Assembly (NCBI RefSeq): GCF_001420005.1
Contig: NZ_LJAK01000004.1
Span: 62,001-126,000, forward strand
DNA: 64,000 nt
Reading direction: 5' to 3'
DNA from: Loktanella sp. 3ANDIMAR09
GTDB lineage: Bacteria > Pseudomonadota > Alphaproteobacteria > Rhodobacterales > Rhodobacteraceae
Positions 7,161-63,709 of the stretch are shown here, piece after piece; position 1 is the stretch's first letter, and the number at the start of each line of letters is the position of its first letter. The position numbers were made by a program, and so were the translations under genes. Below the pieces are notes generated by a model, which saw nothing but the letters and a program-made list of their open reading frames with translations, was not told the origin of the DNA and made no database searches.

Positions 7161-7197
7161 AAACCGGCGGCCCGCCTCCCTGCGCGCCGCCCGCAAA

Positions 7198-35742: not shown

Positions 35743-36741
35743 CTATTCAGCGGCAACCTGCGTCACGAAGGCGAGCGCGTCCAGCATCGTTTGCGATGAC
35801 GCGCCGTCGCGCGATGCATTTTCCGACAGGTGACGCCGCCACATCCGCGCGCCCGGCCGGCCCTGAAACAGCCCCAGCATGTGCCGGGTGATCTGGTGCA
35901 GGCGGCCACCCTGCGCGATATGCGCATCGACATAAGGGACCATCTGCATGACCGCCTCATGCGCCGTGATGGCGTGATCTGTGCCAAAAATACGGCGGTC
36001 GGCGTCCAGCAGGATCGCACTGGGGTCGTGATAGGCCGCCCGCCCGACCATCACGCCATCCAATCCCCTGGCCAGAAAATCCTCTGCAAGATCAAGGCTG
36101 TCTATCCCGCCGTTCACGCTGAGATGCAGGTCGGGAAAGCGGTCCCGCATCGCAAGCACGAGGTCGTAATCCAAGGGCGGTATATCGCGGTTTTCCTTGG
36201 GGCTGAGACCTTGCAACCACGCCTTGCGCGCATGGATCGTGAACCGCGTCACACCCGCCCCCGCGACCCGTTCCAGAAAATCGGGCAGCACCTGCGCGGG
36301 GTCCTGATCGTCCACGCCGATCCGGCATTTCACGGTGACCGGAAGATGCGTTGCCTCTTGCATCGCGGCAACACAGGCCGCGACCAGATCGGGTTCTGTC
36401 ATCAGGATGGCCCCGAAACGCCCTGACTGCACTCGGTCCGACGGGCAACCGCAATTCAGGTTGACCTCGTCATAACCTGCTGCGGTCGCGATGCGGGTCG
36501 CCTCTGCCAAGAGCGCAGGCTCTGACCCACCCAGCTGCACGGCCACGGGATGTTCCTGTGCATTGAACTGCAAGAGCCTGTCGGTGTCGCCCAACACCAC
36601 GGCAGGTGCCGTCACCATTTCGGTATAAAGCAACGCCTGCCGCGACATCAGCCGGTGAAAATACCGACAATGCCTGTCGGTCCAATCCATCATAGGGGCA
36701 ATAGACAACCGCGCTGCCTCGGTGGCTGCGTTCAATAGCAT
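35743..36741 (-). CDS. dusA: tRNA-dihydrouridine synthase A (5' end supplied by a genomic island)
   Basis: 332 residues. The FMN enzyme reduces uridine 20 in the tRNA D-loop. SIAPMMDWTDRHCRYFHR, the active-site Cys in NLNCGCPSDRVQ and VNGGIDS are typical of DusA. The start is the ATG at 36741 behind AAGGAGATCTTTTG. The first 16-18 codons (MLLNAATEAARLSIAP) differ from a second, displaced dusA start near 63.7 kb (MTQGNSILHTAARLSVAP), so the present N-terminus and promoter seem to have been brought in by an inserted island that kept the gene whole. An in-frame start at 36804 is rejected because it would place the strong site inside the gene. Confidence 0.96.
   Translation of the reverse strand: MLLNAATEAARLSIAPMMDWTDRHCRYFHRLMSRQALLYTEMVTAPAVVLGDTDRLLQFNAQEHPVAVQLGGSEPALLAEATRIATAAGYDEVNLNCGCPSDRVQSGRFGAILMTEPDLVAACVAAMQEATHLPVTVKCRIGVDDQDPAQVLPDFLERVAGAGVTRFTIHARKAWLQGLSPKENRDIPPLDYDLVLAMRDRFPDLHLSVNGGIDSLDLAEDFLARGLDGVMVGRAAYHDPSAILLDADRRIFGTDHAITAHEAVMQMVPYVDAHIAQGGRLHQITRHMLGLFQGRPGARMWRRHLSENASRDGASSQTMLDALAFVTQVAAE
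36686..36693. repeat. att core copy 1 (attL side) inside dusA
   Basis: TCCATCAT, encoding the Met-Met-Asp of dusA on the minus strand. The same core recurs at 58192-58199 and 63648-63655, each time at the junction of dusA-start and other DNA. The true crossover region may be a few bases wider. Confidence 0.75.
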
Positions 36742-36866
36742 CAAAAGATCTCCTTGGGGCCGCTTGTATTTAGAACGGACCGTTACTGCGCACCATACGC
36801 ACACGGCTCATGGTTCGCTACCCTGCCCCGTGCAGCGACAGGCGTTCGACGGCGTGTGGGACGGCT
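36694..36866 (-). promoter_or_regulatory. dusA: Island left-end module: replacement dusA start and promoter region
   Basis: This stretch aligns with 58200-58372 without net gaps: the dusA codons, then CACCATACGCACACGGCT (36791-36808 versus 58297-58314) and CCCCGT..GACAGG further on. No such similarity is seen beside the third dusA start at 63.7 kb. It must carry the working promoter of dusA. The next ~100 nt to the IS remnant hold no gene. Confidence 0.72.
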
Positions 36867-37571: not shown

Positions 37572-38552
37572 TCATTTTCTCCCGTAGCGCCGCCACTGAT
37601 CGTGAAGTGTTCCGATGATCCCCTTTCTGAAGAGCATGATGCAGAGCACGAAGATAATGCCCAGGATAACGGACAGCGGAAAGCCGGTCGTGGCGAAGAC
37701 ATTCTGGATTGCGACGATCAAGCCGGCTCCGACCACAGGGCCAAGCATCGTTCCCACGCCGCCCAGCAATGTCATCAGGATAACCTCTCCGGACATATGC
37801 CAGTCCACGTCCGTCAGCGTCGCGATCTGGAAGACCAGCGCCTTGGTTGCCCCGGCCAGACCTGTCAGCGTCGCCGACATTACGAAGGCCGCCAGCTTGT
37901 AGCGATTGACCCGGTAGCCCAGTGACACGGCGCGCGGCTCATTCTCGCGGATCGCGCGCAGGACCTGACCGAAGGGCGAATGCACGATGCGCCAGATCAC
38001 CGCCATACCGACCAGAAACACCCCGCAGACCAGCGCGTACATGGCCATCGGGTCACTCAGGTCGATCAGGCCGAGCAGCCGACCGCGCGGCACGTTCTGG
38101 ATCCCGTCTTCTGCATTTGTGAAACCCGCCCGCAGGAACAGGAAATAGACCATCTGCGCCAGCGCCAGCGTCGTCATCGCAAAGTAGATACCCTGCCGCC
38201 GGATCGCGACCACACCCATGGCCAGTCCAAGGCCCGCCGCGCACAGGGTGCCGAACAGGATGCCCGTCAGCGGCTCAAAATCCCAGACCTTAACCGCATG
38301 GGCAGTGGCATAGGCGGCCCCGCCGAAGAAGGTCGCGTGGCCGAAGGACAGCAGGCCGGTGTAGCCCAGCAGCATGTTGAAGGCGGACGCGAAGAGCGCG
38401 AAGCACAGCAGCTTCATCACGAAAACCGGATACGCCATGAAGGGGGCCACGATCAGCGCGGCGAGGATCGCGGCAACCACGGCGATGCCCTTCCTGGGCA
38501 GGCCCGCGCGCTCTTTCGCGGCGAAGTCGGTAGAGGTGTCGGATACGCTCAT
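37572..38552 (-). CDS. LIV-type ABC transporter permease (LivM-like), system 1
   Basis: 326 residues from the ATG at 38552, just after the LivH-like stop and behind GTGAGG. About nine helices and the LivM signature LLGYTGLLSFGHATFFGGAAY, the EAA-like loop AIRENEPRAVSLGYRVNRYKL and GGVGTMLGPVVGAG are visible. It forms the membrane channel with the LivH-like protein. Last gene of a minus-strand operon: binding protein, GST, LivG, LivF, LivH, LivM. Substrate not predictable; LIV-type systems also move amides, urea and aromatic acids. Confidence 0.93.
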   Translation of the reverse strand: MSVSDTSTDFAAKERAGLPRKGIAVVAAILAALIVAPFMAYPVFVMKLLCFALFASAFNMLLGYTGLLSFGHATFFGGAAYATAHAVKVWDFEPLTGILFGTLCAAGLGLAMGVVAIRRQGIYFAMTTLALAQMVYFLFLRAGFTNAEDGIQNVPRGRLLGLIDLSDPMAMYALVCGVFLVGMAVIWRIVHSPFGQVLRAIRENEPRAVSLGYRVNRYKLAAFVMSATLTGLAGATKALVFQIATLTDVDWHMSGEVILMTLLGGVGTMLGPVVGAGLIVAIQNVFATTGFPLSVILGIIFVLCIMLFRKGIIGTLHDQWRRYGRK

Positions 38553-38559
38553 GTCAGCC

Positions 38560-39447
38560 TCACGCGGTTTTGCCGAACAGGCCGCTCGGACGGAAGAAGA
38601 GAACAATCGCCATGATCACGAAGACCACGATGTTGGACGCCTCGGGATAGATCACCTTGGTCAGCCCCTCGATCAGGCCCAGCAGAAATCCCGTCAGGAT
38701 CGCCCCGCCGATCGAGCCCATCCCGCCGATGACGACGACGGCGAAGACCACGATCACGATGTTCGACCCCATCAGCGGGCTGACTTGAAACACGGGTGCG
38801 GCCATGACGCCCGCGAAAGCGGCCAGGAAGGCCCCGAAGGCGTAGGTCGCCGTCAGCAGCAAAGGCACGTTGACGCCGAAGGCCTCGACCAGCGGGCGAT
38901 TTTCGGTGGCGGCCCGCAGCAAGGCTCCCAGCTTGGTCCGCTCGATCAGGGCCCAAGTGGCAAGGCAGACGATCAGCGACACCACGATCACGAAGGCGCG
39001 GTAGTGGGGCATGATCATGAATCCAAGGTTCGACGCGCCCGACAGGGCGGATGGCGGGCTGAAGTTCTGCCCCGCGACCCCGAATTGATACTGCGCCAGA
39101 CCCTCCACGATCAGCGCGATGCCGAAGGTCAGCAGAAGGCCGTATAGCGGATCGAGACCTTGCAGATGCGTAAGAAGCCCACGCTCGATGGCGGCGGCGA
39201 AGATCGCCACGATCAGGGGTGCTGCGACCAGCAGAATCCAGAACGGCAGGCCGAACCATTCGCCCAAGAGGAACGCCGCGAAGGCCCCCATCATGTACAG
39301 CGCGCCATGGGCGAAGTTGATGATCCGCAGCAGCCCGAAGATGATCGCAAGCCCCAGCGACAGCAGCGCGTAGAACGCCCCGTTGAAAAGGCCGATCAGA
39401 AGTTGGCCCGCCAGAACCGGCAGCGGAATTCCGAAGATGTCTGCCAT
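38560..39447 (-). CDS. LIV-type ABC transporter permease (LivH-like), system 1
   Basis: 295 residues, ~8 helices, with the LivH start FNGAFYALLSLGLAIIFGLL followed by RIINFAHGALYMMGA. The cytoplasmic coupling loop is LLRAATENRPLVEAFGVNV, and GGMGSIGGAILTGFLLGLIEG lies near the end. Only 2 nt separate its start from the LivF-like stop, so they are co-translated. Confidence 0.93.
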   Translation of the reverse strand: MADIFGIPLPVLAGQLLIGLFNGAFYALLSLGLAIIFGLLRIINFAHGALYMMGAFAAFLLGEWFGLPFWILLVAAPLIVAIFAAAIERGLLTHLQGLDPLYGLLLTFGIALIVEGLAQYQFGVAGQNFSPPSALSGASNLGFMIMPHYRAFVIVVSLIVCLATWALIERTKLGALLRAATENRPLVEAFGVNVPLLLTATYAFGAFLAAFAGVMAAPVFQVSPLMGSNIVIVVFAVVVIGGMGSIGGAILTGFLLGLIEGLTKVIYPEASNIVVFVIMAIVLFFRPSGLFGKTA

Positions 39448-39449
39448 GT

Positions 39450-40151
39450 CTATACCCCTACGACTTCGGTGATCTGGCTGGCGTGGGCGTCGAATTCGTC
39501 CCGCGCGAAGCTGCCGGCGATGCGGCCGTTCTCGATCAGGAAAAACCGGTCGGCGAGCGATTTGGCGAAATGGAAGTTCTGCTCGACCAGCAGCATCGTC
39601 ATCCCCTGCTCTTTCAGTTTGCGCAGCATGTCGGCTATGGATTGGACGATGACGGGGGCGAGGCCCTCTGTCGGCTCGTCCAGCAGCAGAAGTTTCGGCC
39701 CGGTGCGCAGGACCCGCGCGAGTGCCAGCATCTGCTGCTCCCCACCTGACAGGGTGCCGCCCCCGGCCCGCCCCCGCTCCTTCAGGTTCGGAAAGAAGCG
39801 GTAGATGTCCGCTTCCGTCATGCCGTCCGTGCCGATCTGCGGCAGCAGGCGGAGGTTTTCGGTGACAGACAGCGAATGGAAGATCCCGCGTTCCTCTGGG
39901 ATGTAGCCGAGCCCATGATAGGCAACGCGGTGGCGCGGCACGTTCATCAGGTCGGCCCCGTCCAGACGGATCATCCCCTCGCGCCGGGACAGAAGGTTCA
40001 TGATGGCGCGCAGCGTGGTGGTCTTGCCTGCCCCGTTGCGCCCGATCAGGGCCACCGTCTCTCCCGGCCGGACAGACAGGGAAAGGCCGTGCAGCACATG
40101 GCTTTCGTCGTACCAGCCGTGCAGGTCGCGGATCTCCAGAAGATCACTCAT
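39450..40151 (-). CDS. LIV-type ABC transporter ATPase (LivF-like), system 1
   Basis: 233 residues from the ATG at 40151. Walker A GRNGAGKTTTLRAIM, signature LSGGEQQMLALARVL, Walker B LLLLDEPTEGLAPV and the LivF-type YIPEERGIFHSLSVTENL are all intact. It overlaps the LivG-like gene by 8 nt. It pairs with LivG to power import. Confidence 0.94.
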   Translation of the reverse strand: MSDLLEIRDLHGWYDESHVLHGLSLSVRPGETVALIGRNGAGKTTTLRAIMNLLSRREGMIRLDGADLMNVPRHRVAYHGLGYIPEERGIFHSLSVTENLRLLPQIGTDGMTEADIYRFFPNLKERGRAGGGTLSGGEQQMLALARVLRTGPKLLLLDEPTEGLAPVIVQSIADMLRKLKEQGMTMLLVEQNFHFAKSLADRFFLIENGRIAGSFARDEFDAHASQITEVVGV

Positions 40152-40932
40152 GCCCTGCCCCCATGTAGCTTTCGCGCACTTCCTGATTGGCGCGGATCTC
40201 TTCGAACGACCCCTCTGCCAGTACCGCACCGCGGGCGAGGACCGTGACCCGGTCACATAGGTCGTCCACCACATCGAGGTTGTGCTCGACCATCAGAACC
40301 GTGCGATCCTGTGCGGCCCGGCGGATCAGCTCGGCGATGGCGCCGATGTCGGCGCTGGCCATGCCCGCCATTGGCTCGTCCAGCAGCATCACCTGCGGGT
40401 CCAGTGCCAACGTCGTCGCCAGCTCCAACGAGCGTTTGCGCCCATAAGACACATCGGATGCGCGCTGATCCCCTAGATCCAGAAGGTTCACCTGATCGAG
40501 CAGCGCGTCCACCCGGTCATCCAGGACGGACAGGCGGCGCGTTGGTTGCCAAAACTGCACGTCCATCCCGTGTTTGCGCTGCAAAGCCACGCGGATGTTC
40601 TCGCGCAGGGTCAGATGCGGGAAGACCGCCGAGATCTGGAACGACCGGACCATGCCCCGCCGCACGACCTCTTCGGGTTTGGCGCGGGTGATGTCTTCCC
40701 CGCCCAGATGGATCTTGCCCGCCGTCGGCGTCAGGAACTTGGTCAGCAGGCCGAACAATGTGGACTTGCCCGCGCCGTTTGGCCCGATCAACCCGTGGAT
40801 CGTGCCGCGCGCTACCTCGAAGGTCACATCGTCGATAGCGGTGAACGCACCGAAGGTCTTGGTCAGGCCGCGCGCCGACAGCGCCACCTCGGACGTCGCA
40901 GCCCGCGGCAGGGTGCGGTCGTGCTGGCTCAT
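40144..40932 (-). CDS. LIV-type ABC transporter ATPase (LivG-like), system 1
   Basis: 262 residues from the ATG at 40932, which overlaps the GST stop (ATGA). Walker A is GPNGAGKSTLFGLL, LivG-type RSFQISAVFPHLTLRENIRVA follows, and Walker B is VMLLDEPMAGM. The signature reads SYGRKRSLELATTLA in place of LSGGQ, a pattern often seen in LivG proteins. The C-terminal GSFEEIRANQEVRESYMG is typical. Confidence 0.94.
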   Translation of the reverse strand: MSQHDRTLPRAATSEVALSARGLTKTFGAFTAIDDVTFEVARGTIHGLIGPNGAGKSTLFGLLTKFLTPTAGKIHLGGEDITRAKPEEVVRRGMVRSFQISAVFPHLTLRENIRVALQRKHGMDVQFWQPTRRLSVLDDRVDALLDQVNLLDLGDQRASDVSYGRKRSLELATTLALDPQVMLLDEPMAGMASADIGAIAELIRRAAQDRTVLMVEHNLDVVDDLCDRVTVLARGAVLAEGSFEEIRANQEVRESYMGAGHE

Positions 40933-41537
40933 GACGGGATCGTCTCGCTGACGGACTTGTGCCGTCCAACACGCTCGATCCACGCGTCAAGGTTCGGGAT
41001 TGCAGGACGCCACGGGTTATCGGGAAAGCGGAAATCCATGTATTGCACGGCATCCACGACGAGCAATTCGGCCAGACCAAGACGGTCCTCGGACAGCCGG
41101 TCCACCATGCCGTCCAAACGACCAAGGCTGACCTTCATGGTCTCACGCCGCCGCTCGGCCACGGGGTGGGTTTCGTCGAACTCGGTCACGGCCAGATCAT
41201 CCGAAAACAGCTTCCGCCCGGTCATTATGTAGACGGCGGCTTCGATCACGCCGAAGGCGAGGCCGCATATCTCATAATCCTGCGGACTTTTCGATTTCAG
41301 GTGCGAGCCCTCGGGCGCGATGTCGGCAGCATACATGGCAATCACCATCGCCTCGGTCAGGATGGTGCCGTCGTCCAGTTGCAGGCACGGCACCCGCTTG
41401 GCGGGGTTCAGTTCGACCAGCTGCTCCGGGTCGGCCCAAGGGTTCAGAAGTTCGATCTCGAAATCGGCCTGCGCTTCGATAAGGGCCATGTGCGCCAGGC
41501 GTGCGAACGGCGAGGTGGTGGATTTCATCAGTTTCAT
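40929..41537 (-). CDS. Glutathione S-transferase family protein
   Basis: 202 residues. The N-terminal thioredoxin fold has SPFARLAHMALIEA with Ser near the usual catalytic position, and cis-Pro in AKRVPCLQLDDG, then TEAMVIAMY. An all-helical C-terminal domain follows. It sits between the binding protein and the ATPases of the ABC operon, so its job is probably tied to the imported compound, for example glutathione-dependent cleavage or detoxification. That is inferred from position only. Confidence 0.85.
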   Translation of the reverse strand: MKLMKSTTSPFARLAHMALIEAQADFEIELLNPWADPEQLVELNPAKRVPCLQLDDGTILTEAMVIAMYAADIAPEGSHLKSKSPQDYEICGLAFGVIEAAVYIMTGRKLFSDDLAVTEFDETHPVAERRRETMKVSLGRLDGMVDRLSEDRLGLAELLVVDAVQYMDFRFPDNPWRPAIPNLDAWIERVGRHKSVSETIPS

Positions 41538-41570
41538 GGGGTCTCTCCCGATCGGATCAAATGGAAGGCC

Positions 41571-41592
41571 CGGGGGCCATCCAAGGCCCCCG
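41571..41592 (-). terminator. Hairpin after the binding-protein gene, system 1
   Basis: CGGGGGCC-ATCCAA-GGCCCCCG, 8-bp stem, 19 nt after the stop of the periplasmic binding protein and ahead of the rest of its operon. No T-run, so it is more likely an mRNA-stabilising or partial-termination hairpin that keeps binding protein levels above those of the membrane parts. Confidence 0.6.
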
Positions 41593-41610
41593 AAGTGGGG
41601 AGGAGCGCGC

Positions 41611-42813
41611 CTAGTTTGTCGCGGCGGCGGTCAGCGGGCAGCCACTGTCGGCCGCCGACAGGAACAGGCTGTCGCCCGGAATGGTCGCCACGATCTCGTA
41701 GATGTCCGCCGGACCCTCGCTTTCATCGGGCGTGTTCACCTCTGCCAGCAGCATGTCGTAGACCACGCGTCCGTTCTCCTGGATCGAGGCGTTCTGGTAA
41801 AACCCGTCGCTCAGCGGCATTTCCTTCATCTTGGCGGTGACCGCCTCTGCATCCGTCGTGCCTGCCTCTGCCACGGCATTCAGAAAATGCATGACCCCGG
41901 AATAGGCGCCCGCATGGCCCATGGTGGGCACCTGCCCGCCATTCATCTCCATGATGCGGTTGCCGAAGTCGCGGGTCTGATCGTTCAGATCCCAGTAGAA
42001 GGACGTTGCCATGCGGATGTTCTGCGCCTGCTCAAGGCCCAGCGCCTGGACATTGTTGGCGAAGACCAGCATCGCGGCAAGGTGGTCCGACAGGCCGAAG
42101 TTCCCGGCCTGCTTGATCGTCGTCTCCAGATCCGTGCCCGCGTTCGCCAGCCCGAAGATCTTCGCGCCCGAGCCTTGCGCCGACAGCAGCGCCGAGGCCA
42201 TGTCGTTGGTGTTCAGCGGATGCACCGTCTCGCCCACCACGCTTCCGCCCGCTTCCTCGATGGCGGCGGTGGCGTCGGCGGCAAGGGCGTGGCCGAAGAC
42301 GTAATCGGGCGTGATCATGTACCAGCTATCGCCGCCCTGCTCGACCACCGCACCGGCCACACCTCGGGCCAGCTCGCGGGTCGTGGGCGCCCAGTGAAAG
42401 CTGTAGGGCGTGCATTGATCGCCCGAGAAGTTGGGCGCGTAGCCGCCCGTCGCCAGCGTTACCACACCGCTCTCCCCGGCCCGCGCCTGCGCGGCCAGAC
42501 CCACGGCAGAGGAGCCGCCGAGGGTCATCGCGACGACGCCCTGTTCATCAATCAGCTGTTGCGCCAGCGCCGATCCCACGTCGGGCTTGTTCTGGTGATC
42601 GGCAGAGATCACCTCGATCGGGCGGCCCAGAACCTCTCCGCCGAAATCCTCGACGGCCATCTCGACGGCGCGCAGGGTGTTCGGCCCGCCGTTGCCGGAA
42701 TAGATACCGGTCATGTCGTCCAGCACCAGCAGGCGGACGGGTCCGTCCTGTGCGAAGGCGGGCAAGGCGGCGGTGGCCAGAAGGGCTGCGGCAAGCGTCT
42801 TTGTCAGGGTCAT
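41611..42813 (-). CDS. LIV-type ABC transporter substrate-binding protein, system 1
   Basis: 400 residues from the ATG at 42813 behind GGGAGAG, giving a signal peptide MTLTKTLAAALLATAALPAFAQ. The type I periplasmic-binding fold is seen in VRLLVLDDMTGIYSGNGGPN and VDFGGEVLGRPIEVISADHQNKPD-like segments, with the family DYVFGHALAADATAAIEEAGG in the second lobe. It captures the substrate outside and delivers it to the LivHM channel. First gene of the minus-strand operon and divergent from the CitF-like gene, with 293 nt between that must hold both promoters. Confidence 0.92.
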   Translation of the reverse strand: MTLTKTLAAALLATAALPAFAQDGPVRLLVLDDMTGIYSGNGGPNTLRAVEMAVEDFGGEVLGRPIEVISADHQNKPDVGSALAQQLIDEQGVVAMTLGGSSAVGLAAQARAGESGVVTLATGGYAPNFSGDQCTPYSFHWAPTTRELARGVAGAVVEQGGDSWYMITPDYVFGHALAADATAAIEEAGGSVVGETVHPLNTNDMASALLSAQGSGAKIFGLANAGTDLETTIKQAGNFGLSDHLAAMLVFANNVQALGLEQAQNIRMATSFYWDLNDQTRDFGNRIMEMNGGQVPTMGHAGAYSGVMHFLNAVAEAGTTDAEAVTAKMKEMPLSDGFYQNASIQENGRVVYDMLLAEVNTPDESEGPADIYEIVATIPGDSLFLSAADSGCPLTAAATN

Positions 42814-43106
42814 GTCTCTCTCCCGTTGGTGGTCCCGCACCGACCGGCAGGGCGGTGCGCTCGGGGCACAGATGCCCCCTTGTCCATGCAAGACTGCTTT
42901 GAAAAGCGCCGTCACAGGAAAGACGAAAGCAAGCTTGGGGCTATAGATTTCGGCTATGACCCGCGCCTCAGTCCCAGAGGATTGACCCTGATGAGGCCAT
43001 CCGACCGCTTGGCTAGACGATTATCGTATGGCGTTTGCAGCTTATCCGTCTTTCACTGCGCCAGCCCTGCATGTGTAGATAACGGTGACAGCCGAAGAGG
43101 ACTCCG

Positions 43107-44603
43107 ATGAACCAGACGCAGCGCATCCCGCAATGGATTCTCGATCAAGGCCCGTTCTCGCGCACGTCGCTTGCACACGTAAGCAAGACCGCGCGGCATG
43201 GGTCTGGCAAGGTCAGCCCCGATCTTGATACGACCCTTGCCAAGCTTGGACTGCGCGACGGGGCCACGCTTTCGTTCCATCATCACCTGCGCAACGGCGA
43301 TGCGGTGATGGTCGCCGTGATCGACGCCTGCGCGCGGGCGGGTCTGCGCGATTTGCATGTGGCCGCGTCCTCGATCTTTCCGGTCCACGCGCCACTTGTC
43401 GCCCATATGGAAAGCGGCGTCATCGGGGGGATGAGCACGAATTTCCTGTCCGGTCCCGTCGCGCAGGCCGTCTCACGCGGTGTGTTGAAGACACCGGTGA
43501 TCCTGCGCACCCACGGTGGCCGTGCCCGCGCGATCGCAGATGGCACGCTGAAGATCGACGCCGCCTTCATCGCCGCCCCCGCTGCCGACCCGCTGGGCAA
43601 TATCTCGGGCACCCATGGCCCGCGCGCCTGCGGCGTCCTTGGCTACCCGCAGTGTGACGCCCGACACGCGGCCCAGGTCATCGCCGTGACCGATACGCTG
43701 ACAGAGTTTCCGGTGCCCGGCATCCAGATCGGTCACGACCGCGTGGATCAGGTCGCGCTTGTGCCGACGCTGGGCGATCAGGACGGCATCCTGTCGGGCA
43801 CCACCCGCCCCAGCACCAAACCGGCCGACCTGGAAATCGCCCGGCTGGCCACCGCCGTCATCGACGCCAGCGGCCTTCTGGTGGACGGCTTCAGCCTGCA
43901 GAACGGCGCAGGGGGTGCATCGCTGGCAACGGCGAAGGCCCTTGGAGAGCGGATGACGGAACGCGGCGTTACCGGCAGCTTCGCCAGCGGCGGCATCACC
44001 GGCTTCCACGTCGACATGCTGGAAGCGGGCCTCTTCCGCGCGCTTCTGAATGTGCAGTGCTTCGATCTGGCGGCAGTGGAGTCCTTTGCCCGCGACAGGC
44101 GGCATCAGGGGATCTCGGCCTCAATGTACGCGAACCCGTACCAGCGCGGGTCTGTCGTGGATCGCCTGGATGCGGTGGTTCTCGGCGCGACCGAGATCGA
44201 CTTGGACTTCAACGTCAACGTCACCACCCTGGCCGATGGTACGATCGCGGGTGGATCGGGCGGGCACGCCGATACGGCAGCGGGCGCGAAGCTCGCCATC
44301 GTCACCACCAAGCTGACGGCAGCGGGCTTTCCAAAGATCGTCGAGCGGGTGGGCACCCTGACCACGCCGGGGGCCACAATCGACGTGCTGGTCACCGATC
44401 AGGGCATCGCCGTGAACCCCACCCGGCCCGACCTGCACGAGCGGCTGACCCACGCGGGTCTCGCCCCGGTTCCTATCACCGATCTGCAGGCCCGCGCCCG
44501 CAATCAGTCCGACCGCGCGCCGATCCGGTCCGAAAGCGATGACATCGTGGCGATCTGTGAATACCGTGACGGCAGTGTCACCGACGTTATCCGCCGTATC
44601 TGA
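43107..44603 (+). CDS. Citrate lyase alpha-subunit family protein (candidate citramalate CoA-transferase)
   Basis: 498 residues, close to the ~510 of CitF. Family marks are GSGKVSPDLDTTLAKLGLRD near the start, TLSFHHHLRNGD, and SASMYANPYQRGSVVDRLD near residue 335. CitF normally swaps acetyl on the citrate lyase acyl carrier for citrate. Here no carrier subunit (CitD) or prosthetic-group genes (CitG, CitX) are nearby. Instead the next gene is a class I fumarase and the one after a CitE-like lyase. This set fits the route mesaconate, (S)-citramalate, citramalyl-CoA, acetyl-CoA plus pyruvate, in which a CitF-like protein acts as CoA-transferase. The family call is firm, the substrate is inferred. 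Confidence 0.85.
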   Translation: MNQTQRIPQWILDQGPFSRTSLAHVSKTARHGSGKVSPDLDTTLAKLGLRDGATLSFHHHLRNGDAVMVAVIDACARAGLRDLHVAASSIFPVHAPLVAHMESGVIGGMSTNFLSGPVAQAVSRGVLKTPVILRTHGGRARAIADGTLKIDAAFIAAPAADPLGNISGTHGPRACGVLGYPQCDARHAAQVIAVTDTLTEFPVPGIQIGHDRVDQVALVPTLGDQDGILSGTTRPSTKPADLEIARLATAVIDASGLLVDGFSLQNGAGGASLATAKALGERMTERGVTGSFASGGITGFHVDMLEAGLFRALLNVQCFDLAAVESFARDRRHQGISASMYANPYQRGSVVDRLDAVVLGATEIDLDFNVNVTTLADGTIAGGSGGHADTAAGAKLAIVTTKLTAAGFPKIVERVGTLTTPGATIDVLVTDQGIAVNPTRPDLHERLTHAGLAPVPITDLQARARNQSDRAPIRSESDDIVAICEYRDGSVTDVIRRI

Positions 44604-44612
44604 GGACCTCCC

Positions 44613-46109
44613 ATGCCGCCCATCACCGAAGCCCACGTCATTGACAGCATCGCCGACGCGCTCCAGTTCGTGGCCTGCTATCATCCGACGGATTTCATCA
44701 CCGCCATGGCGGACGCCTACGAGCGCGAGGAAGCGCCCGGCGCCAGGAACGCCATTGCCCAGATCCTGACCAACTCGCGCATGTGCGCGCTGGGAAAGCG
44801 GCCCATCTGCCAGGATACCGGGGTGGCGAACGTCTTCGTGAAGCTGGGCGTTCAGGCCGCTACGGACTGGAAACGCCCCCTGCAGGACATCGTGGATGAC
44901 GCGGTGCGCCGCGCCTACATGCTGGATACGAACCCCCTGCGGGCTTCGGTCGTGCGCGACCCCTTCGGGATGCGCAAAAACACTGGCGACAACACCCCAG
45001 CCATGCTGCATGTCGAGATGGTGTCGGGCGACAAGCTGGACATCACCGTCTCGGCCAAGGGCGGCGGGTCCGAGAACAAGACCAGGTTCGCGGTGCTGAA
45101 CCCCTCGGCCTCTGTCGCGGATTGGGTGATTGAGACGGTCCAGACCCTTGGCGCGGGCTGGTGCCCGCCGGGCATGCTGGGGATCGGCGTCGGCGGTTCG
45201 GTGGACAAGGCGATGGCCATGGCCAAGATGTCGCTCAACGATCCGGTGGACATGGCCGATCTGCTGGCGCGCGGCCCATCGAATCCGGTCGAAGAGCTAC
45301 GATGCGAGATCTACCGCCGCGTCAACGATCTGGGCATCGGCGCGCAAGGCTTGGGCGGGCTGACCACGGTGCTGGACGTCAAGGTGAACCACTATCCCAC
45401 CCACGCGGCCTCCCTACCCGTGGCGCTGATCCCCAATTGCGTCGCCACGCGCCACGTCCACTTCACGCTGGATGGAAGCGGCGCGGCGACATTCGATCCG
45501 CCTGACCTCTCGCTCTGGCCCGAGGTGACGCTGGAGGCCGCCGCCGCCGATGCCCGCCGCATCGACCTTGACGCGCTGGACGACGCCACGTTGGCCTCTC
45601 TGGAACCGGGCGACACGCTTCTGGTGTCCGGCACACTCTATACCGGCCGCGACGCCGCCCATAAGCGCATGGTCGAAACGCTGGACCGGGGCGAGGATCT
45701 GCCGGTCGATCTGCGCGGGCGCGCCATCTATTACGTGGGCCCCGTCGATCCCGTGGGCGACGAGGTGATCGGCCCCGCTGGTCCGACCACGTCGACCCGG
45801 ATGGACAAGTTCACCGACCGTGTGCTGGGAGAGACCGGTCTCAAGGTCATGATCGGCAAGGCCGAACGTGGCCCCGAGGGATTGCGCGCCATCGCAAAAC
45901 ACGGCGCGGTCTACATGATCGCGGTCGGCGGCGCGGCGTTCCTGGTGTCGAAGGCCATCAAGGAGGCGCAGCCCGTGGCCTACGAAGACCTCGGCATGGA
46001 GGCTATCTACAAGCTGCGGGTGAAGGATATGCCCGTGACGCTGGCCGTGGACACCAAAGGCAACTCCATCCACGAGATCGGCCCGAATGCCTGGCGCAAG
46101 AGCGCCTGA
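44613..46109 (+). CDS. Class I (Fe-S) fumarate hydratase family, candidate mesaconase
   Basis: 498 residues, a single chain with both the alpha and beta domains of class I fumarases. Likely 4Fe-4S ligands are the Cys of RPICQDTG (near 65), GWCPPG (near 185) and IPNCVATRH (near 280). The beta domain has the GPTTSTRMDKFTD active-site segment and an IGKAERG loop. It starts 9 nt after the CitF-like gene. Class I fumarases can hydrate mesaconate to (S)-citramalate, and the neighbours make that the likely role rather than a spare TCA enzyme. Confidence 0.9.
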   Translation: MPPITEAHVIDSIADALQFVACYHPTDFITAMADAYEREEAPGARNAIAQILTNSRMCALGKRPICQDTGVANVFVKLGVQAATDWKRPLQDIVDDAVRRAYMLDTNPLRASVVRDPFGMRKNTGDNTPAMLHVEMVSGDKLDITVSAKGGGSENKTRFAVLNPSASVADWVIETVQTLGAGWCPPGMLGIGVGGSVDKAMAMAKMSLNDPVDMADLLARGPSNPVEELRCEIYRRVNDLGIGAQGLGGLTTVLDVKVNHYPTHAASLPVALIPNCVATRHVHFTLDGSGAATFDPPDLSLWPEVTLEAAAADARRIDLDALDDATLASLEPGDTLLVSGTLYTGRDAAHKRMVETLDRGEDLPVDLRGRAIYYVGPVDPVGDEVIGPAGPTTSTRMDKFTDRVLGETGLKVMIGKAERGPEGLRAIAKHGAVYMIAVGGAAFLVSKAIKEAQPVAYEDLGMEAIYKLRVKDMPVTLAVDTKGNSIHEIGPNAWRKSA

Positions 46110-46114
46110 GGCCC

Positions 46115-46912
46115 CTACCCCGCCGCCCGAGACAGGATCCGTCGGGCGGCGTCTTCCACCGGATTGTCGATCATCTTGCCATCCAGCGCGACGGCGCCCG
46201 ATCCGCTGGCCTCTATCGCCTCGATCACTCGGCGTGCCCACGTCACCTCGTCTTCGCTCGGGGCAAAGATTCGGGCGACGGGCTCGACCTGCTTGGGATG
46301 GATCAACAGCTTGCCGGCAAAGCCCAGCCGCTTGGCGTAGCGTGTATCGTCCTCCAGCGCGGTCGTATCGTCGAGCTTGACGGTCACGCTGTCGATCGGC
46401 GGCTCGGCACCGGCCAGCCGTGACTGCATGACCAACTGGCCGCGCGCATACGCCAAGGCATCGCGGTCCGGCGCGGCACCGATATCCAGCGCGAAGTCGA
46501 GATGGCCAAAAGCGGCGCGGGGCGTGTCGTCCCGCGCAAGCAGCTCCGCCGCCCGGTGCAGGCCCAGCGCGGTTTCGATCTGGGGGATCAGCTCCACCTG
46601 CCGACCTGCCGCCGCCCGCACGGCTGATAGGGTACCGGTGCTCTGTGCTTTCGGGACCATGATCGCCGTGGCACGGCACCGCGGCAGCCACGCCAGATCA
46701 GCCTCGAACCCCGGCGCGGTGGCATCGTTGATCCGAACGACCACCCGCGTCCAGTCCAGTTCGGCAGTTGCGATGGCATCCCGCGCGGCGGGCTTATCCT
46801 TCGCGCGCACCGCGTCCTCCAGATCAAGGATCACGCGATCCGCCCCGGACCCAAGCGCCTTTTCAAAGCGCTCGGGCCGGTTCGCGGGCACGAAAAGATA
46901 CGTCGTATTCAT
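46115..46912 (-). CDS. CitE-like (HpcH/HpaI family) lyase, candidate citramalyl-CoA lyase
   Basis: 265 residues. LFVPANRPERFEKALGSGAD, DLEDAVRAKDKPAAR and the Mg-binding GHLDFALDIGA are typical of CitE/MCL-type aldolases acting on acyl-CoA esters. Stand-alone CitE-like proteins split malyl-, citramalyl- or similar CoA thioesters. It is convergent with the fumarase (5 nt between stops) and followed by SnoaL-like and GST-like genes on its own strand, so it is probably read with those. Confidence 0.88.
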   Translation of the reverse strand: MNTTYLFVPANRPERFEKALGSGADRVILDLEDAVRAKDKPAARDAIATAELDWTRVVVRINDATAPGFEADLAWLPRCRATAIMVPKAQSTGTLSAVRAAAGRQVELIPQIETALGLHRAAELLARDDTPRAAFGHLDFALDIGAAPDRDALAYARGQLVMQSRLAGAEPPIDSVTVKLDDTTALEDDTRYAKRLGFAGKLLIHPKQVEPVARIFAPSEDEVTWARRVIEAIEASGSGAVALDGKMIDNPVEDAARRILSRAAG

Positions 46913-46943: not shown

Positions 46944-47369
46944 TCAGACGGGTATCATACCGATCTGCTGTTGCAGCCCAAGGTTGTCGATGGCGGGCCA
47001 TTGCTCGGCGATCTTGCCGTCCTCCATGCGGAAGAAATCCAGCACCATCACGTCAAACCGTTTGCCGGACGCCGGATGATCGCCGAACGGGCCGTCATGG
47101 ATTCCGCGGAATTGCAGCCGCACCAGCACCTTGTCGTTCTCTTCGATGATGTCCTGAATATCCAGTTCGACCTCCGAGAAGGCCCCCAAAAGGACATCGC
47201 CCAAGTCCAACACGCCCTGCGGCCCCACCACCTCGAACGGAAGGTTGGTATCGTTCCGGCGGTAGGTCGAGGCGACGTTTGCCTCAAGCCATTCCCGATC
47301 CTTGGAGGCGAAAGCCTTGAAGTAATCAGCGGCGCGTTTCTTGTTCGGGGTGTTCGCAAGTTCTGTCAT
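46944..47369 (-). CDS. SnoaL-like / NTF2-fold protein
   Basis: 141 residues with the NTF2-like pattern: helices at the start (KRAADYFKAFASKDREWLEANV), then LVRLQFRGIHDGPFGDHPASG and VMVLDFFRMEDGKIAEQWPAID. The family has cyclases, isomerases and binding proteins. It lies 31 nt upstream of the CitE-like gene on the same strand. Two more copies of this fold occur fused in the gene at 61526, in island 2. Confidence 0.82.
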   Translation of the reverse strand: MTELANTPNKKRAADYFKAFASKDREWLEANVASTYRRNDTNLPFEVVGPQGVLDLGDVLLGAFSEVELDIQDIIEENDKVLVRLQFRGIHDGPFGDHPASGKRFDVMVLDFFRMEDGKIAEQWPAIDNLGLQQQIGMIPV

Positions 47370-47390: not shown

Positions 47391-48317
47391 TCAAACCGGC
47401 AGCGTTTCGAATCCCGCGCGCGGGAAATGAACGTGCAGGGTGCCTGTCTCTTCTGTCTCGATGGCGACGACGACCTCTTGCGCATTGGCCGCAACCATGG
47501 TGCCCGTCACCGGCACACGTGCGTTATCATCCGGCGTCACGGTGACCCGCGTGCCCATGGCGATGCCGCTGGGGTCTTCCCCTTGCGGCAGGTGAGCGGG
47601 ATCTGGCTCTGCCGCCTTCGCCGCTGCCACGGCCTCTTCGGAGGCCATGTCGGTCTTCGAACCGTGGCCTACCGCCGCGACCCGGTCCATCCAATCGGTG
47701 ACGTCAGACCCGAGATGAAGTTGCGCGTCTATGGCATCGGCACCGGCATTGGCGCGCAACAGCCACAGCGAATGGTGGCAAGTCAGATCAGCCGCGCTCA
47801 GGCTGTCGCCGGTCAGGAACGGGCCATTCTGGGACAGCATCGACGACAGCCATTCACCGTAGGCTGTCAGCTGCTGAACATAGGTCGGCAGCATCGGGGC
47901 CATGCCCTCTTTCGATACATCATAGCCCAGATAATGATCGCGCCGGTCGTCGATGAACTCCTGCGGCAGGTGCTCTCCGATATGGGCGACCAGCACGCCG
48001 ATGGCGGGCTTCCACGTGGCGCGATCCCACCACAGAGACAGCGCCTTCGCGATCCCCTCTCCCTGCGGGTACAGGGTGGGCGTGGCCTTCACCCGCTCCA
48101 ACGCGGCGAAGATCACTTCGGTATCGCAGAACACATCGGCACCGATCTGCAAAACGGGAATGCGGCGGTAGCCGCCGGTCAGCAGGTCAAGCATCGGACG
48201 CGGCGGGACGGACTCCACGATGACCGAGCGCCAGTCCAAACCCTTATGACCCATCGCAAGGCGGACCTTCTCGGAAAAGGGGGACAAGTCGTAGTGGTGC
48301 AGAATGATGTCGGTCAT
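47391..48317 (-). CDS. Glutathione S-transferase-like protein with C-terminal beta extension
   Basis: 308 residues. Residues 1-80 form the thioredoxin-like domain (YDLSPFSEKVRLAMGHKGL, cis-Pro in RRIPVLQIGAD, CDTEVIFAAL). Residues ~90-220 form the helical domain. A ~70-residue C-terminal segment (GTRVTVTPDDNARVPVTGTM) is all beta and not part of ordinary GSTs. It begins the minus-strand set GST, SnoaL-like, CitE-like, divergent from the LysR gene. The substrate is unknown. Confidence 0.82.
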   Translation of the reverse strand: MTDIILHHYDLSPFSEKVRLAMGHKGLDWRSVIVESVPPRPMLDLLTGGYRRIPVLQIGADVFCDTEVIFAALERVKATPTLYPQGEGIAKALSLWWDRATWKPAIGVLVAHIGEHLPQEFIDDRRDHYLGYDVSKEGMAPMLPTYVQQLTAYGEWLSSMLSQNGPFLTGDSLSAADLTCHHSLWLLRANAGADAIDAQLHLGSDVTDWMDRVAAVGHGSKTDMASEEAVAAAKAAEPDPAHLPQGEDPSGIAMGTRVTVTPDDNARVPVTGTMVAANAQEVVVAIETEETGTLHVHFPRAGFETLPV

Positions 48318-48401: not shown

Positions 48402-48506
48402 GTTCCGACACCCCCGATAGGCAAAATGTCTAGCCCGATGCGCTTCGTGGCGGTCTTCCCCGACGCGGAAAAGCCCCATATCCTTCCGCCCGCAGGAGGA
48501 CGAATC

Positions 48507-49457
48507 GTGGACATCAAGCAGCTACGCTACTTCATCGCGATCGCGGAAGAAGGCTCATTGTCCGCGGCGGCCCTTCGGGTATCCGTCGCACAGCCGTCCT
48601 TGTCGCAGCATGTGCTGACTTTGGAGCGGGAGCTGGGCGTCACGCTTCTGGAACGCTCGCCGCGCGGGGTCTCCTTGACCGCCTCTGGAGAAGTCCTGCT
48701 GGCCCACGCGCGCGCCATCACCGGATCGCTGGAACAGGCGGTCGAGGCGGTGCGGCAGTCGGGCGCCGAACCCATGGGAGAGGTCACATTCGGCCTGCCC
48801 TCCTCTGTCTCCATGGTTTTGTCTGTCCCGCTGGCAGAAACCACCCGGCTGGAGCTGCCCAAGGTCCGCTTGCGCGCCATCGAGGCGATGAGCGGATTCA
48901 TCCAGACCTGGCTGGAAGACCAGTCCATCGACCTCGGCCTTCTGTACGACGTTTCCGCCGTACGCCATCTGACGCACACCAAGCTGATGACGGAAGAGTT
49001 GTGCTTCTTCTCGGCCCCTGACAACTGGCCCTTCGAAACCGCGCCGGGCACACCCGTGAAACTCGCTGAGCTGCAGGGGCTGGATCTGATTTTGCCCTCG
49101 CAGCACCACGGGCTGCGCACGATGATCGACCGGTTCACCAAGGCCAGCGGCGTGACGCTCACCGTCGGCACGGAAATGGACGCGCTGAGCCAGATCAAGA
49201 TCATGGTGTCGCGCGGATCGGCGCATACCATTCTGGCCCCCGCCGCCGCGCAGGATTTTCTGGAGCGCGAAGAGCTGGTCATGGCGCCCATCACTGACCC
49301 GCAGATGGTCCGCCCCATCTATCTTGTGCGCAACCCCGCCAAACCGGTCACCAAGGCCAGCCGGGAGTTGGAGCGCGTGACGCTGTCGGTCATCCTTGAC
49401 CTGGTGCAACGCGGGATCTGGAAGGCCGACCAGGGCACAATGCTGGCCGAAGATTGA
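48507..49457 (+). CDS. LysR-family transcriptional regulator
   Basis: 316 residues from a GTG at 48507 behind AGGAGGA, giving MDIKQLRYFIAIAEEGSLSA, the typical LysR start. The HTH is LSAAALRVSVAQPSLSQHVLTLERELG. The effector domain runs from ~90 to the end. The longer frame to 48426 would swallow the strong ribosome binding site. It stands between the GST/SnoaL/CitE set and the SDR-aldehyde dehydrogenase genes and is the only regulator in island 1, so it likely controls the catabolic genes in response to their substrate. Confidence 0.92.
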   Translation: MDIKQLRYFIAIAEEGSLSAAALRVSVAQPSLSQHVLTLERELGVTLLERSPRGVSLTASGEVLLAHARAITGSLEQAVEAVRQSGAEPMGEVTFGLPSSVSMVLSVPLAETTRLELPKVRLRAIEAMSGFIQTWLEDQSIDLGLLYDVSAVRHLTHTKLMTEELCFFSAPDNWPFETAPGTPVKLAELQGLDLILPSQHHGLRTMIDRFTKASGVTLTVGTEMDALSQIKIMVSRGSAHTILAPAAAQDFLEREELVMAPITDPQMVRPIYLVRNPAKPVTKASRELERVTLSVILDLVQRGIWKADQGTMLAED

Positions 49458-49573: not shown

Positions 49574-50371
49574 GTGGGAGAGAGATTGAAAGACAAGGTG
49601 GTGTTCATCACCGGCGCCGGATCCATCGGCGAGGGCTGGGGCAACGGCAAGGCCGCCGCCGTGCAGTTCGCCCGAGAAGGCGCGAAGGTCTACGCCTCTG
49701 ACATCAATCAAGAGGCGCTGGACGAGGTGGTGGGCATCATCCGCGACGAGGGCGGCACGATCGAGGGGCGGACCTGCGACGTGTCGAAGGCCGATCAGGT
49801 CGAAGCAACGGTGCAGGCCTGCATGGACGCCTTCGGCCGCATCGACGTGCTGCACAACAACGTGGGCATCATCGATCCGGGCACGCCCGAGCAGCTGAGC
49901 GAAGAGCAGTGGGACCGGCTGATGGCGATCAACGTCAAGTCGATTTATCTGACCTGCCGCCACATCCTGCCGATCATGGTGGAACAGGGCAAAGGCGCGA
50001 TCATCAACGTCAGCTCGATCGCCTCGACCCATTCGCTGGGCTATCCCTGCATCAGCTATACAGCCTCCAAGGGGGCTGTGAATGCCTTCACGCGCGACAT
50101 CGCGCTGAACTACGGACCCAAGGGCATCCGCTGCAACACGATCCTGCCGGGCCTGATGAACACGCCGCTGATACATCAGAAGAACGTGGTCTCGGTCTAT
50201 GGTTCCGCCGAGGAAATGGTTCGCCAACGCGACGCGCTCGTGCCCGTGGGGCACATGGGCGATGGATGGGATGTGGCCCATGCGGCCGTCTTTCTGGCAT
50301 CGGACGAGGCGAAATCCATCACCGGGATCGAGCTGCCCATCGACGGCGGCATCACCCTGAAGATCAAGTGA
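49574..50371 (+). CDS. Short-chain dehydrogenase/reductase (SDR)
   Basis: 265 residues from a GTG at 49574. The cofactor motif is TGAGSIGEGWGNGKAAA, somewhat longer than usual; HNNVGIID replaces the common NNAG; the catalytic Ser is in INVSSIAS and Tyr-Lys in YTASKGAV. The C-terminal PIDGGITLKIK is typical. A TTG at 49586 is an alternative start. It precedes the aldehyde dehydrogenase by 26 nt, which suggests alcohol to aldehyde to acid oxidation in two steps. Confidence 0.88.
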   Translation: MGERLKDKVVFITGAGSIGEGWGNGKAAAVQFAREGAKVYASDINQEALDEVVGIIRDEGGTIEGRTCDVSKADQVEATVQACMDAFGRIDVLHNNVGIIDPGTPEQLSEEQWDRLMAINVKSIYLTCRHILPIMVEQGKGAIINVSSIASTHSLGYPCISYTASKGAVNAFTRDIALNYGPKGIRCNTILPGLMNTPLIHQKNVVSVYGSAEEMVRQRDALVPVGHMGDGWDVAHAAVFLASDEAKSITGIELPIDGGITLKIK

Positions 50372-56714: not shown

Positions 56715-57464
56715 ATGAGACTGAAAGACAAATGCTGCTTCGTGACCGGCGCAGCCTCGGGCTTCGGCGAGGGCATCGCCCGGAAATTCACCGATGAGGG
56801 CGCGCGGGTCGCGGTCGTGGATATCGACGCCGAGAACGCAAAACGCGTTGCAGAGACGATCGGCAACGGGGCCATCGCGGTCACCTGCGACGTGACCAAG
56901 GCCGACCAGGTGGAAAAGGCCGTCGTCACGGTGATGGACGAGTTTGGCCGCATAGACACGCTGATTAACAATGCGGGCTGGTCCAACAAGAACGCGCCAT
57001 TGATGGAAACCGACGAAAAGACCATGCGAAAGATCTATGACGTGAACGTCATGTCGATCTTCCACATGACCAAGGCCATCGTGCCCCGCTGGCGCAAGGC
57101 CAATCCGGGCGTGATGATCAACGTAGGCTCCACCGCAGGCATCCGTCCTCGTCCCGGCCTGACTTGGTACAACTCGTCCAAGGGCGCGGCGAACATCCTG
57201 ACCAAGTCTCTGGCGGTCGAACTGGCGCCCGACAAGATCCGCGTCTGCGGGTTAGCGCCGGTCATGGGGGCGACGGCGCTTCTGGAGAATTTCATGGGGA
57301 TGCCCGACACGCCTGAAAACCGCGAGAAATTTATCGAGACCATCCCCATGGGCCGCCTTTCAGAAGCCCGCGACGTGGCAAACGCCGCCGCATTCCTCGC
57401 CTCGGATGAGGCAGAGTTCCTGACCGGCGTGATCCTGGAGGTCGACGGAGGGCGTACCGTCTGA
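56715..57464 (+). CDS. Short-chain dehydrogenase/reductase (SDR)
   Basis: 249 residues. GGAGAGAGAGAC leads the ATG. The cofactor motif is TGAASGFGEGIA, with Asp in VVDIDAEN that prefers NAD; NNAGWSN, catalytic Ser in INVGSTAG and Tyr-Lys in YNSSKGAAN follow. It is the last gene of the plus-strand operon, 19 nt after the ATPase, and is likely to oxidise the imported compound or a product of it. It is the last clear gene of island 1. Confidence 0.9.
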   Translation: MRLKDKCCFVTGAASGFGEGIARKFTDEGARVAVVDIDAENAKRVAETIGNGAIAVTCDVTKADQVEKAVVTVMDEFGRIDTLINNAGWSNKNAPLMETDEKTMRKIYDVNVMSIFHMTKAIVPRWRKANPGVMINVGSTAGIRPRPGLTWYNSSKGAANILTKSLAVELAPDKIRVCGLAPVMGATALLENFMGMPDTPENREKFIETIPMGRLSEARDVANAAAFLASDEAEFLTGVILEVDGGRTV

Positions 57465-58154: not shown

Positions 58155-58191
58155 TTAGCAAGCTATTGGAAAATCGAGAAAATCGCCACCA

Positions 58192-58247
58192 TCCATCATG
58201 GTCGCAGTAGACAACCGCGCGGCCTCGGTGGCTGCGTTTGAAGGCAT
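58192..58247 (-). pseudogene. dusA: Displaced dusA start (island 2 left-end copy)
   Basis: From an ATG at 58247 behind GAGGAGAACGC, the minus strand encodes MPSNAATEAARLSTATMMD and then runs into unrelated sequence. It is the same length as, and nearly identical to, the functional dusA start at 36741. The att core TCCATCAT is its last coding part. The upstream 120 nt match the region before the functional gene. Confidence 0.85.
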
Positions 58248-58452
58248 TCAGCGTTCTCCTCGTGTGCGCCCTCTACCGGAACGGACCCGCTGTGCACACC
58301 ATACGCACACGGCTTCTGTCCTTCTACCCCACCCCGTACAAAGACAGGAAGACGGCGGCGTTTGGGTGGAGGTGCCTCAAAACAGGGGCATTGGTGAACT
58401 CTCCAGATTCAACAAATTTCTTATTGTTGGCCGGAATCGACTACCCCTCACT

Positions 58453-58803
58453 ATGCCCAGACTCTCGATTGTTATCTCACTGGAAGACCATCAGAAGCTC
58501 AAGGCCATCGCTGCTCTCAAGGGCCAGAGCATAAAGGACTATGTCTTGGGTCGAGCACTTGGCGATGCCCCTGCACTCGACGGCATGAGCGAAGACGAGG
58601 CTTTCATGGCGCTGGCCAACTTCCTGGAGCCGAGGATCAAGCAGGCGCGGCGCGGCGCGCTTTCCGGCAAGTCGCCTGACGAAGTCTGCCTCCATAGATG
58701 CCAGCGTGACTACATCTTCTGGCTTGCAATCGACCGCCCCATCATCATCGCCGTCCTACACGAAAAAATGGATGCCGTGCAGAGGCTGAATGACAGGCTT
58801 TAG
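58453..58803 (+). CDS. RHH antitoxin-like protein with an apparent ParE-toxin C-terminal remnant
   Basis: 116 residues. Residues 1-75 (MPRLSIVISLEDHQKLKAIA, then GQSIKDYVLGRALG and EAFMALANFLEPRIKQARRG) match ribbon-helix-helix antitoxins. Residues ~86-116 (QRDYIFWLAIDRPIIIAVLHEKMDAVQRL) look like the end of a ParE/RelE toxin, whose last strands are usually xVIxxxLHxRMDxxxxL. The body of the toxin is missing, so the gene is best read as a deletion fusion of an antitoxin-toxin pair. Its stop overlaps the converging DUF418 gene. Whether it still binds DNA or neutralises a toxin is unknown. Confidence 0.7.
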   Translation: MPRLSIVISLEDHQKLKAIAALKGQSIKDYVLGRALGDAPALDGMSEDEAFMALANFLEPRIKQARRGALSGKSPDEVCLHRCQRDYIFWLAIDRPIIIAVLHEKMDAVQRLNDRL

Positions 58804-63305: not shown

Positions 63306-63647
63306 CGATTGAATGCCGACCACGCCGGCGTGCCGCCGCTGGGCCCTCACCCACAGATCTTTCGCAACGGGCGCATTGTCGGCACTGTCTTCGCGCATTC
63401 TGGTCGGCAACGGTGGTCCCGAACTACCTTGGCGGCTCTGTTGCTGCCGTCTGACCTGATACGCGGGGGGGCAGGGCCAAAGCGAGGCCATCGCGTTCTT
63501 GAGCGAGTCAAAATCCTTGCAGCGCGTCGTTCACGATGCCGCTTCACGAAACAGCACGATCACGCACGAAATCATGCGATCGAAACATGAACATGTGTTG
63601 CACACGACGCCCCGCAACGTATTGAAATACTATCGTAATCTCCATCA
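63306..63647. other. Right flank of island 2 with the second right-end box
   Basis: No credible gene. TGAACATGTGTTGCACACG then ACGC at 63588-63610 is the partner of the box at 58132-58154, again 37 nt ahead of TCCATCAT. A GATCACGC upstream of the box is also shared by both ends. Confidence 0.65.
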
Positions 63648-63709
63648 TCCATCATCGGGGCGACGGACAGGCGGGCGGCGGTGTGCAGAATGCTGTTGCC
63701 TTGTGTCAT
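63648..63709 (-). pseudogene. dusA: Displaced dusA start, probably the original chromosomal one
   Basis: From an ATG at 63709 behind GATGGAGGACCC, the minus strand encodes MTQGNSILHTAARLSVAPMM plus D and then leaves the family sequence at the att core. It is two codons longer than the island-borne starts, and its upstream region does not match theirs, so it is taken as the pre-insertion dusA 5' end. Confidence 0.8.

Follow-up and report, generated by a model that had tools for sequence, protein, structure and literature searches.

The window analysed here, a stretch of 64,000 nucleotides from Loktanella sp. 3ANDIMAR09 (contig NZ_LJAK01000004.1, positions 62,001 to 126,000), carries at 43107-46912 a CitF-like protein, a single-chain class I fumarase and a CitE-like lyase that probably form a carrier-free module for the degradation of mesaconate and (S)-citramalate. 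A preliminary description of the window had grouped these three genes together, and this grouping was borne out, as the three open reading frames (ORFs) are intact and adjacent, with the lyase gene convergent to the fumarase gene. The new element is the clade of CitF proteins without the carrier CitD, together with the residues that mark it; the pathway itself is known. The three genes, each an ATG-started ORF, are as follows:

43107..44603, plus strand: CitF-like protein, 498 amino acids; proposed free acyl-coenzyme A (CoA):citramalate CoA-transferase, independent of CitD
44613..46109, plus strand: single-chain class I fumarase, 498 amino acids; proposed mesaconase (mesaconate to (S)-citramalate)
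46115..46912, minus strand: CitE-like CoA-ester lyase, 265 amino acids; proposed (S)-citramalyl-CoA lyase

In the proposed route, the fumarase would hydrate mesaconate to (S)-citramalate, CitF would transfer CoA from acetyl-CoA or succinyl-CoA onto citramalate without an acyl-carrier partner, and the lyase would cleave the resulting citramalyl-CoA to acetyl-CoA and pyruvate. With acetyl-CoA as the donor, the donor would be regenerated at each turn, and the net reaction would convert citramalate to acetate and pyruvate like that of the anaerobic citramalate lyase, though with free CoA. A further, speculative role for CitF, in relatives with mesaconyl-CoA, would be to swap CoA between this ester and citramalate. 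The route has been described with Ict as the transferase (PMC4682846, PMC9875883; papers are cited by PMC number for the portions drawn on here), and the class I fumarases from both E. coli and B. xenovorans are able to hydrate mesaconate (PMC4682846). The kcat/KM of Ict of C. necator is 0.5 on (S)-citramalate compared to 65.2 on (R)-methylsuccinate (PMC12290011), and this poor performance on (S)-citramalate leaves room for a dedicated enzyme.

The CitF protein matches PF04223 (CitF) with 491 bits (cut-off 27), and its score of 519.4 bits with the citF model TIGR01584 (NCBIfam) lies narrowly above the cut-off of 501.45. The fumarase matches PF05681 (Fumerase, 305.5 bits) and PF05683 (Fumerase_C, 260 bits), and its residues Cys66, Cys184 and Cys276, which we take to be the ligands of the iron-sulfur cluster, align with cysteines of the solved 'Fumarate hydratase 2' 6uqm. 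The lyase matches PF03328 (HpcH_HpaI, 97.5 bits), and R60, E113, D139 and D249, presumably the catalytic and metal residues of RipC/Ccl-type lyases, are conserved in all five lyases aligned; the closest of four labelled lyases is that of an itaconate-type cluster of Shinella (43.6% identity). Genome-wide searches of Loktanella sp. 3ANDIMAR09 returned a single copy of CitF, one PF05681 protein and five PF03328 proteins. Because a full-length FumC is encoded elsewhere in the genome (730.9 bits, cut-off 664.75), the fumarase of the module is not the only one of the genome and need not be the housekeeping enzyme.

The genome, of 3.67 Mb and 99.99% complete, was searched whole for CitD (PF06857), CitX and CitG, and none of the three was found, with E. 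coli matched as a control in each search. Among those genes that were scanned with Pfam in the island holding the module, none was CitC, and no genome-wide search for CitC was made. The earlier statement that CitD, CitG and CitX are missing from the module therefore extends to the whole genome; a citD-citG-citX set elsewhere, which by that description would have spoken against the module, was not found. Near full-length CitF was detected in 2 of 385 genomes of a class sample, while in a family sample 35 of 295 genomes gave any match to CitF: in 17 it was nearly full length (with an internal stop in one of them), in one (genome G550) it was split into three pieces, and in 17 it covered only a portion of CitF, as matches of other CoA-transferases do. 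CitD (PF06857) was found in none of 21 genomes searched, which comprised the 17 with near-full-length CitF, G550, G355 and two genomes without CitF (0/19 for the genomes with CitF).

In a tree of 41 CitF sequences, 30 alpha- and betaproteobacterial sequences, including that of the window, were split from the 11 others with support of 100/100. Left out of this tree were loci L084 and L103, for which the match spanned 240 and 194 amino acids, respectively, and L006, a duplicate of L087; in the records of L103 (G550) and L084 (a plasmid of C. necator N-1) the CitF reading frame is in pieces. Of the 30 CitF, 18 are from genomes in which the CitD search was genome-wide, and citD was not seen by tblastn at 1e-5 in the fetched stretches of the other 12 (L001-L005, L007-L011, L039, L047). 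On the carrier side, citD lies near 9 of the 11 CitF, by annotation or tblastn, and was not found on the short contigs of the other two (L012, L014). L001-L014, L039 and L047 were checked by tblastn at 1e-5, and L087-L104 at 1e-8 only, with their genomes covered by hidden Markov model (HMM) searches; the threshold of 1e-8 misses the citD of L013, which 1e-5 reveals. At L008, L010, L087 (the same as L006), L090 and L092-L099, the CitD-less CitF stands alone among unrelated genes.

The two sides of the tree also differ in sequence. Six positions differ between them in at least 80% of the rows of each, the sharpest being 405 and 407 in the numbering of the window CitF, a pair chosen after the fact from these six. 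Arg405 together with Arg407 (Arg-x-Arg) is present in 11/11 CitF of the carrier side and in 0/30 CitD-less CitF, in which position 405 is Ala (27), Gly (2) or Ser (1) and position 407 is Gly (26), Asn (2), Asp (1) or Thr (1); the window CitF has A405 and G407 where the carrier type has Arg. A held-out check, covering the carrier side, was drawn from a phylum sample of 398 genomes with eight high-scoring carrier-type places, of which the seven with loci were examined; Arg-x-Arg was present in all seven, each with citD in its locus. When other CoA-transferases were placed on the CitF profile (45 loci, 44 yielding an aligned row), Arg405 was present in 0/44 and Arg407 in 4/44, where the alignment is loose. 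As Arg405 is absent from these enzymes, the CitD-less CitF resemble ordinary users of CoA at this site. The sequence change fits a carrier-independent enzyme, and Arg405 and Arg407 may hold the prosthetic arm of the carrier or CitD itself. A structure of CitF predicted from the single sequence was discarded (mean predicted local distance difference test score of 36.3), and no structural claim was drawn from it.

The gene neighbourhoods of relatives, among them itaconate/methylsuccinate-type clusters that contain CitF or a fumarase, suggest that mesaconate and other branched C5 dicarboxylates are the probable substrates. CitF is accompanied by a CitE-like lyase, a SnoaL gene, a glutathione S-transferase (GST)-like gene and a LysR gene in L001 (Palleronia pelagia), L002, L004, L005, L007 and L009, and a fumarase gene is also present in all of these except L007, the match in L004 being partial at the end of the stretch. 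Among the 30 CitD-less loci, a fumarase relative occurs in 13 (counting the partial one of L004), a CitE/Ccl-type lyase in 11 (omitting a weak match of 33% in L104), and SnoaL and GST-like genes together in the same 9; the conserved unit in relatives is larger than 43107-46912. Itaconate/methylsuccinate-type genes lie with CitF in L088, L047, L084 and L011, and L088 combines MmgE/PrpD, MaoC, an acyl-CoA dehydrogenase, CaiB, a lyase, CitF and a fumarase. The families of L088 are those of the methylsuccinate/itaconate cluster of Pseudomonas and Cupriavidus (PMC12290011). The cluster of Shinella HZN7 shows the family composition of this type. Judged by shared families and cluster composition, the acyl-CoA dehydrogenase, MmgE, MaoC and CaiB of the relatives would correspond to Mcd, Msi, Ich and Ict, and we take MaoC to be Ich in such clusters. 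Pyruvate carboxylase, which would suit pyruvate as a product, is encoded together with CitF, a lyase and CaiB in single stretches of L039, L047 and L084.

Relatives of the fumarase provide a second line of context. Fumarases 59-60% identical to that of the window are encoded on plasmids of Ensifer adhaerens, Rhizobium sullae and Mesorhizobium (together L143, L144 and L146), where they sit with the mesaconate-forming methylaspartate ammonia-lyase, a CaiB CoA-transferase and a CoA-ester lyase, and in the Ensifer adhaerens and Rhizobium sullae clusters (2/3) also with glutamate mutase. These clusters look like a methylaspartate route of glutamate breakdown that would operate with free CoA. In a tree of 25 fumarases, the Mesorhizobium sequence is sister to the CitF-adjacent fumarases of L100 and L102 (100/96); that of L039, in which one LysR gene lies between fumarase and CitF, is the sister of the Ensifer/Rhizobium pair (100/100). 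These sister placements suggest that, next to one family of fumarases, CitF and CaiB take each other's place.

Several observations weigh against the assignment of the module to mesaconate. A fumarase relative (59% identity) lies in a gentisate cluster, where the product would be fumarate, another is found close to the genes for acetate kinase and phosphate acetyltransferase, where C5 genes are lacking, and those of L042 and L044, on Neorhizobium and Klebsiella plasmids, accompany AtuA-family and DUF4387 genes and dehydrogenases; with such contexts, the fumarase family is not devoted to mesaconate only. The mesaconate-context fumarases do not group as a single clade among the 25 in the tree, so specificity is not proved by the fumarase sequence on its own. 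Methylaspartate ammonia-lyase is not encoded in the window, to which the search for it was confined. For 12 of the 30 CitD-less CitF, the fetched stretch contains neither a fumarase or lyase gene nor one of the itaconate type. Finally, the score of the lyase with the NCBIfam equivalog RipC_Ccl (158.9 bits) is under the cut-off of 375, as is its score with the citE model TIGR01588 (139.9 bits, cut-off 443.4), the Ccl score being the higher of the two.

The genes that surround the core are as follows:

37572..42915, minus strand: LIV/HAAT-type ATP-binding cassette (ABC) transporter 1 (LivM, LivH, LivF, LivG and a substrate-binding protein), by Pfam and by synteny in L001
40929-41537: GST-like gene inside the transporter 1 region
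46944..47369, minus strand: SnoaL-like protein (PF07366), a conserved partner
47391..48317, minus strand: GST-like protein of 308 amino acids (PF13417), a conserved partner
48426..49457, plus strand: LysR-type regulator (PF03466/PF00126), conserved with the cluster
49595..50371, plus strand: short-chain dehydrogenase/reductase (SDR) (PF13561), a possible upstream step; 95% identical in L001
50392..51837, plus strand: aldehyde dehydrogenase (ALDH) (PF00171), a possible upstream step; 71-86% identical in L001, L002, L004, L088 and L089
52024..56695, plus strand: LIV/HAAT-type ABC transporter 2 (substrate-binding protein, two permeases, two ATPases); substrate-binding protein and ATPases by Pfam, the permeases, not Pfam-scanned, by ORF and similarity to transporter 1
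56715..57464, plus strand: second SDR dehydrogenase (PF13561), at the island end

The presence of SDR, ALDH, GST and SnoaL genes hints at an upstream substrate of larger size. It is unlikely, in our estimate, that the core ends the pathway of another branched hydroxy-diacid (3-methylmalate, itatartarate or a larger compound), a compound that the SDR and ALDH would oxidise first and that GST and SnoaL would process, and that mesaconate is not the true substrate. Such a pathway would account for the conservation of the SnoaL, GST-like, SDR and ALDH genes, which is about as high as that of the core in the closest relatives, and for the two ABC transporters that flank the core; however, the stretch of L003 shows, among the queries, CitF and fumarase only, and beside methylaspartate ammonia-lyase, a fumarase, a lyase and a CoA-transferase occur without annotated SnoaL or GST genes in the vicinity. 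Improbable as well, and ranked after it, is a fumarate/malate module, in which the fumarase would convert fumarate to (S)-malate, CitF would form malyl-CoA and the lyase would release acetyl-CoA and glyoxylate. Class I fumarases do act on fumarate, one relative belongs to a gentisate pathway cluster, and for malyl-CoA lyases in the CitE superfamily the substrates include malyl-, methylmalyl- and citramalyl-CoA (PMC3832036); however, the genome already encodes a full-length FumC, the closest of the four labelled lyases is from an itaconate-type cluster, and branched C5 acids recur in the contexts of several relatives. That the three genes are a non-working remnant of a citrate lyase operon after loss of citC, citD, citX and citG, for which the narrow pass of the curated citF model could be cited, is very improbable given that the genes are intact and conserved across genera, that the CitD-less CitF group together in the tree with a common site change, and that the lyase scores higher against Ccl than against CitE. 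A carrier-free mesaconate/(S)-citramalate module, as the preliminary description had proposed, remains the favoured explanation, supported by the C5-acid contexts of relatives, the site change in CitF and the negative searches for CitD, CitX and CitG; we infer its substrates, CoA donor and stereochemistry, as well as the upstream role of SDR, ALDH, GST and SnoaL, from sequence.

The module resembles several known systems, each with a difference. Ict is a CaiB/BaiF-type protein. Mesaconate use by B. xenovorans and engineered Pseudomonas putida combines a class I fumarase with Ict and Ccl; the transferase there is Ict, whereas here it is CitF, and here, unlike in that set, all three genes are adjacent. 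P. putida KT2440 has a mesaconase of its own, PP_0897 (PMC9875883). The clostridial citramalate lyase of the methylaspartate pathway likewise has a CitF-type alpha subunit and a CitE-type lyase, there beside methylaspartate genes, and the Peptoclostridium CitF is 48.8% identical to that of the window; however, the clostridial system has annotated citD, citC and citX and a CitF with Arg405 and Arg407, whereas the window genome is without CitD. Citrate lyase CitDEF has the CitF family and the CitE superfamily in common with the module, whereas here CitD, CitX and CitG were not found, Arg-x-Arg is lacking and the lyase falls below the CitE cut-off. The itaconate/methylsuccinate clusters (Ict, Ich, Ccl, Mcd, Msi) have a related lyase, and L088 has all of these families plus CitF and a fumarase; CaiB, MaoC, acyl-CoA dehydrogenase and MmgE/PrpD gave no match in the window with the queries used. 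The rhizobial plasmid clusters (L143, L144, L146) share the fumarase, a CoA-ester lyase and a LysR gene with the window and carry CaiB where the window has CitF. A literature search of open-licence papers brought up no account of a carrier-free CitF or of a citramalate CoA-transferase of the CitF type, and a literature search likewise found no published description of the rhizobial plasmid clusters.

The island that holds the module is bounded by copies of the 5' end of dusA:

36685..36860: copy of the dusA 5' end, left island boundary (direct repeat)
58191..58366: remnant of the dusA 5' end, right island boundary

The left and right copies are 77% identical over 79 nucleotides and 73% over 88 nucleotides, with an equal spacing of 21506. 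A third remnant, at 63647-63679, is 94% identical over 33 nucleotides to the beginning of dusA in G390, a genome of the same genus, which is without a CitF match and keeps, by eye, tatC, tatA and tauE-like neighbours beside dusA. The dusA copies and the comparison with G390 fit two putative tandem insertions of the dusA type, and dusA-associated islands (PMC4482086) offer a comparison for the duplicated dusA 5' ends. Degenerate transposase-like fragments were seen by eye at the island ends; no integrase ORF was recognised by eye near them, and no HMM search for integrases was made. The earlier proposal of a mobile island is upheld in part, by the dusA 5'-end copies at about 36.69, 58.19 and 63.65 kb. 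The putative second tandem insertion, at about 58.3-63.65 kb, holds an SDR-like ORF and a SnoaL-like protein (61526-62410). Short ORF(s) at 58453-58803, just outside the right repeat, resemble a toxin-antitoxin pair by eye, and genes at 3827-7701 similarly resemble a CoxMSL-type molybdenum hydroxylase set.

CitD-less CitF proteins are annotated as 'citrate lyase subunit alpha' (e.g., in R. leguminosarum), which implies citrate fermentation in aerobic bacteria; the Arg405/Arg407 marker together with the absence of CitD may distinguish CitF of the carrier type from CitF of the free-CoA type. Two CoA-transferase families, CitF and CaiB/BaiF, occupy comparable places near related fumarases. In the portion of a review drawn on here, (S)-citramalate CoA-transferase (EC 2.8.3.11) and mesaconase are without KEGG function numbers (PMC8307300), and the module thus offers candidates for both. 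A wider joint reading, which we put forward tentatively, is that the CitD-less CitF form a separate family of Alpha- and Betaproteobacteria that arose after loss of Arg-x-Arg and the carrier and would act as free acetyl-CoA:(S)-citramalate CoA-transferases. As a possible part of the same reading, CitF, fumarase and lyase would make up a self-priming 'citramalate lyase' that needs no carrier and may supply a gene for EC 2.8.3.11. In marine Rhodobacteraceae, and with the same reserve, this enzyme set could end a branched C5 pathway, for example of an isoprenoid-derived diol or aldehyde, that would be oxidised by the SDR and ALDH.

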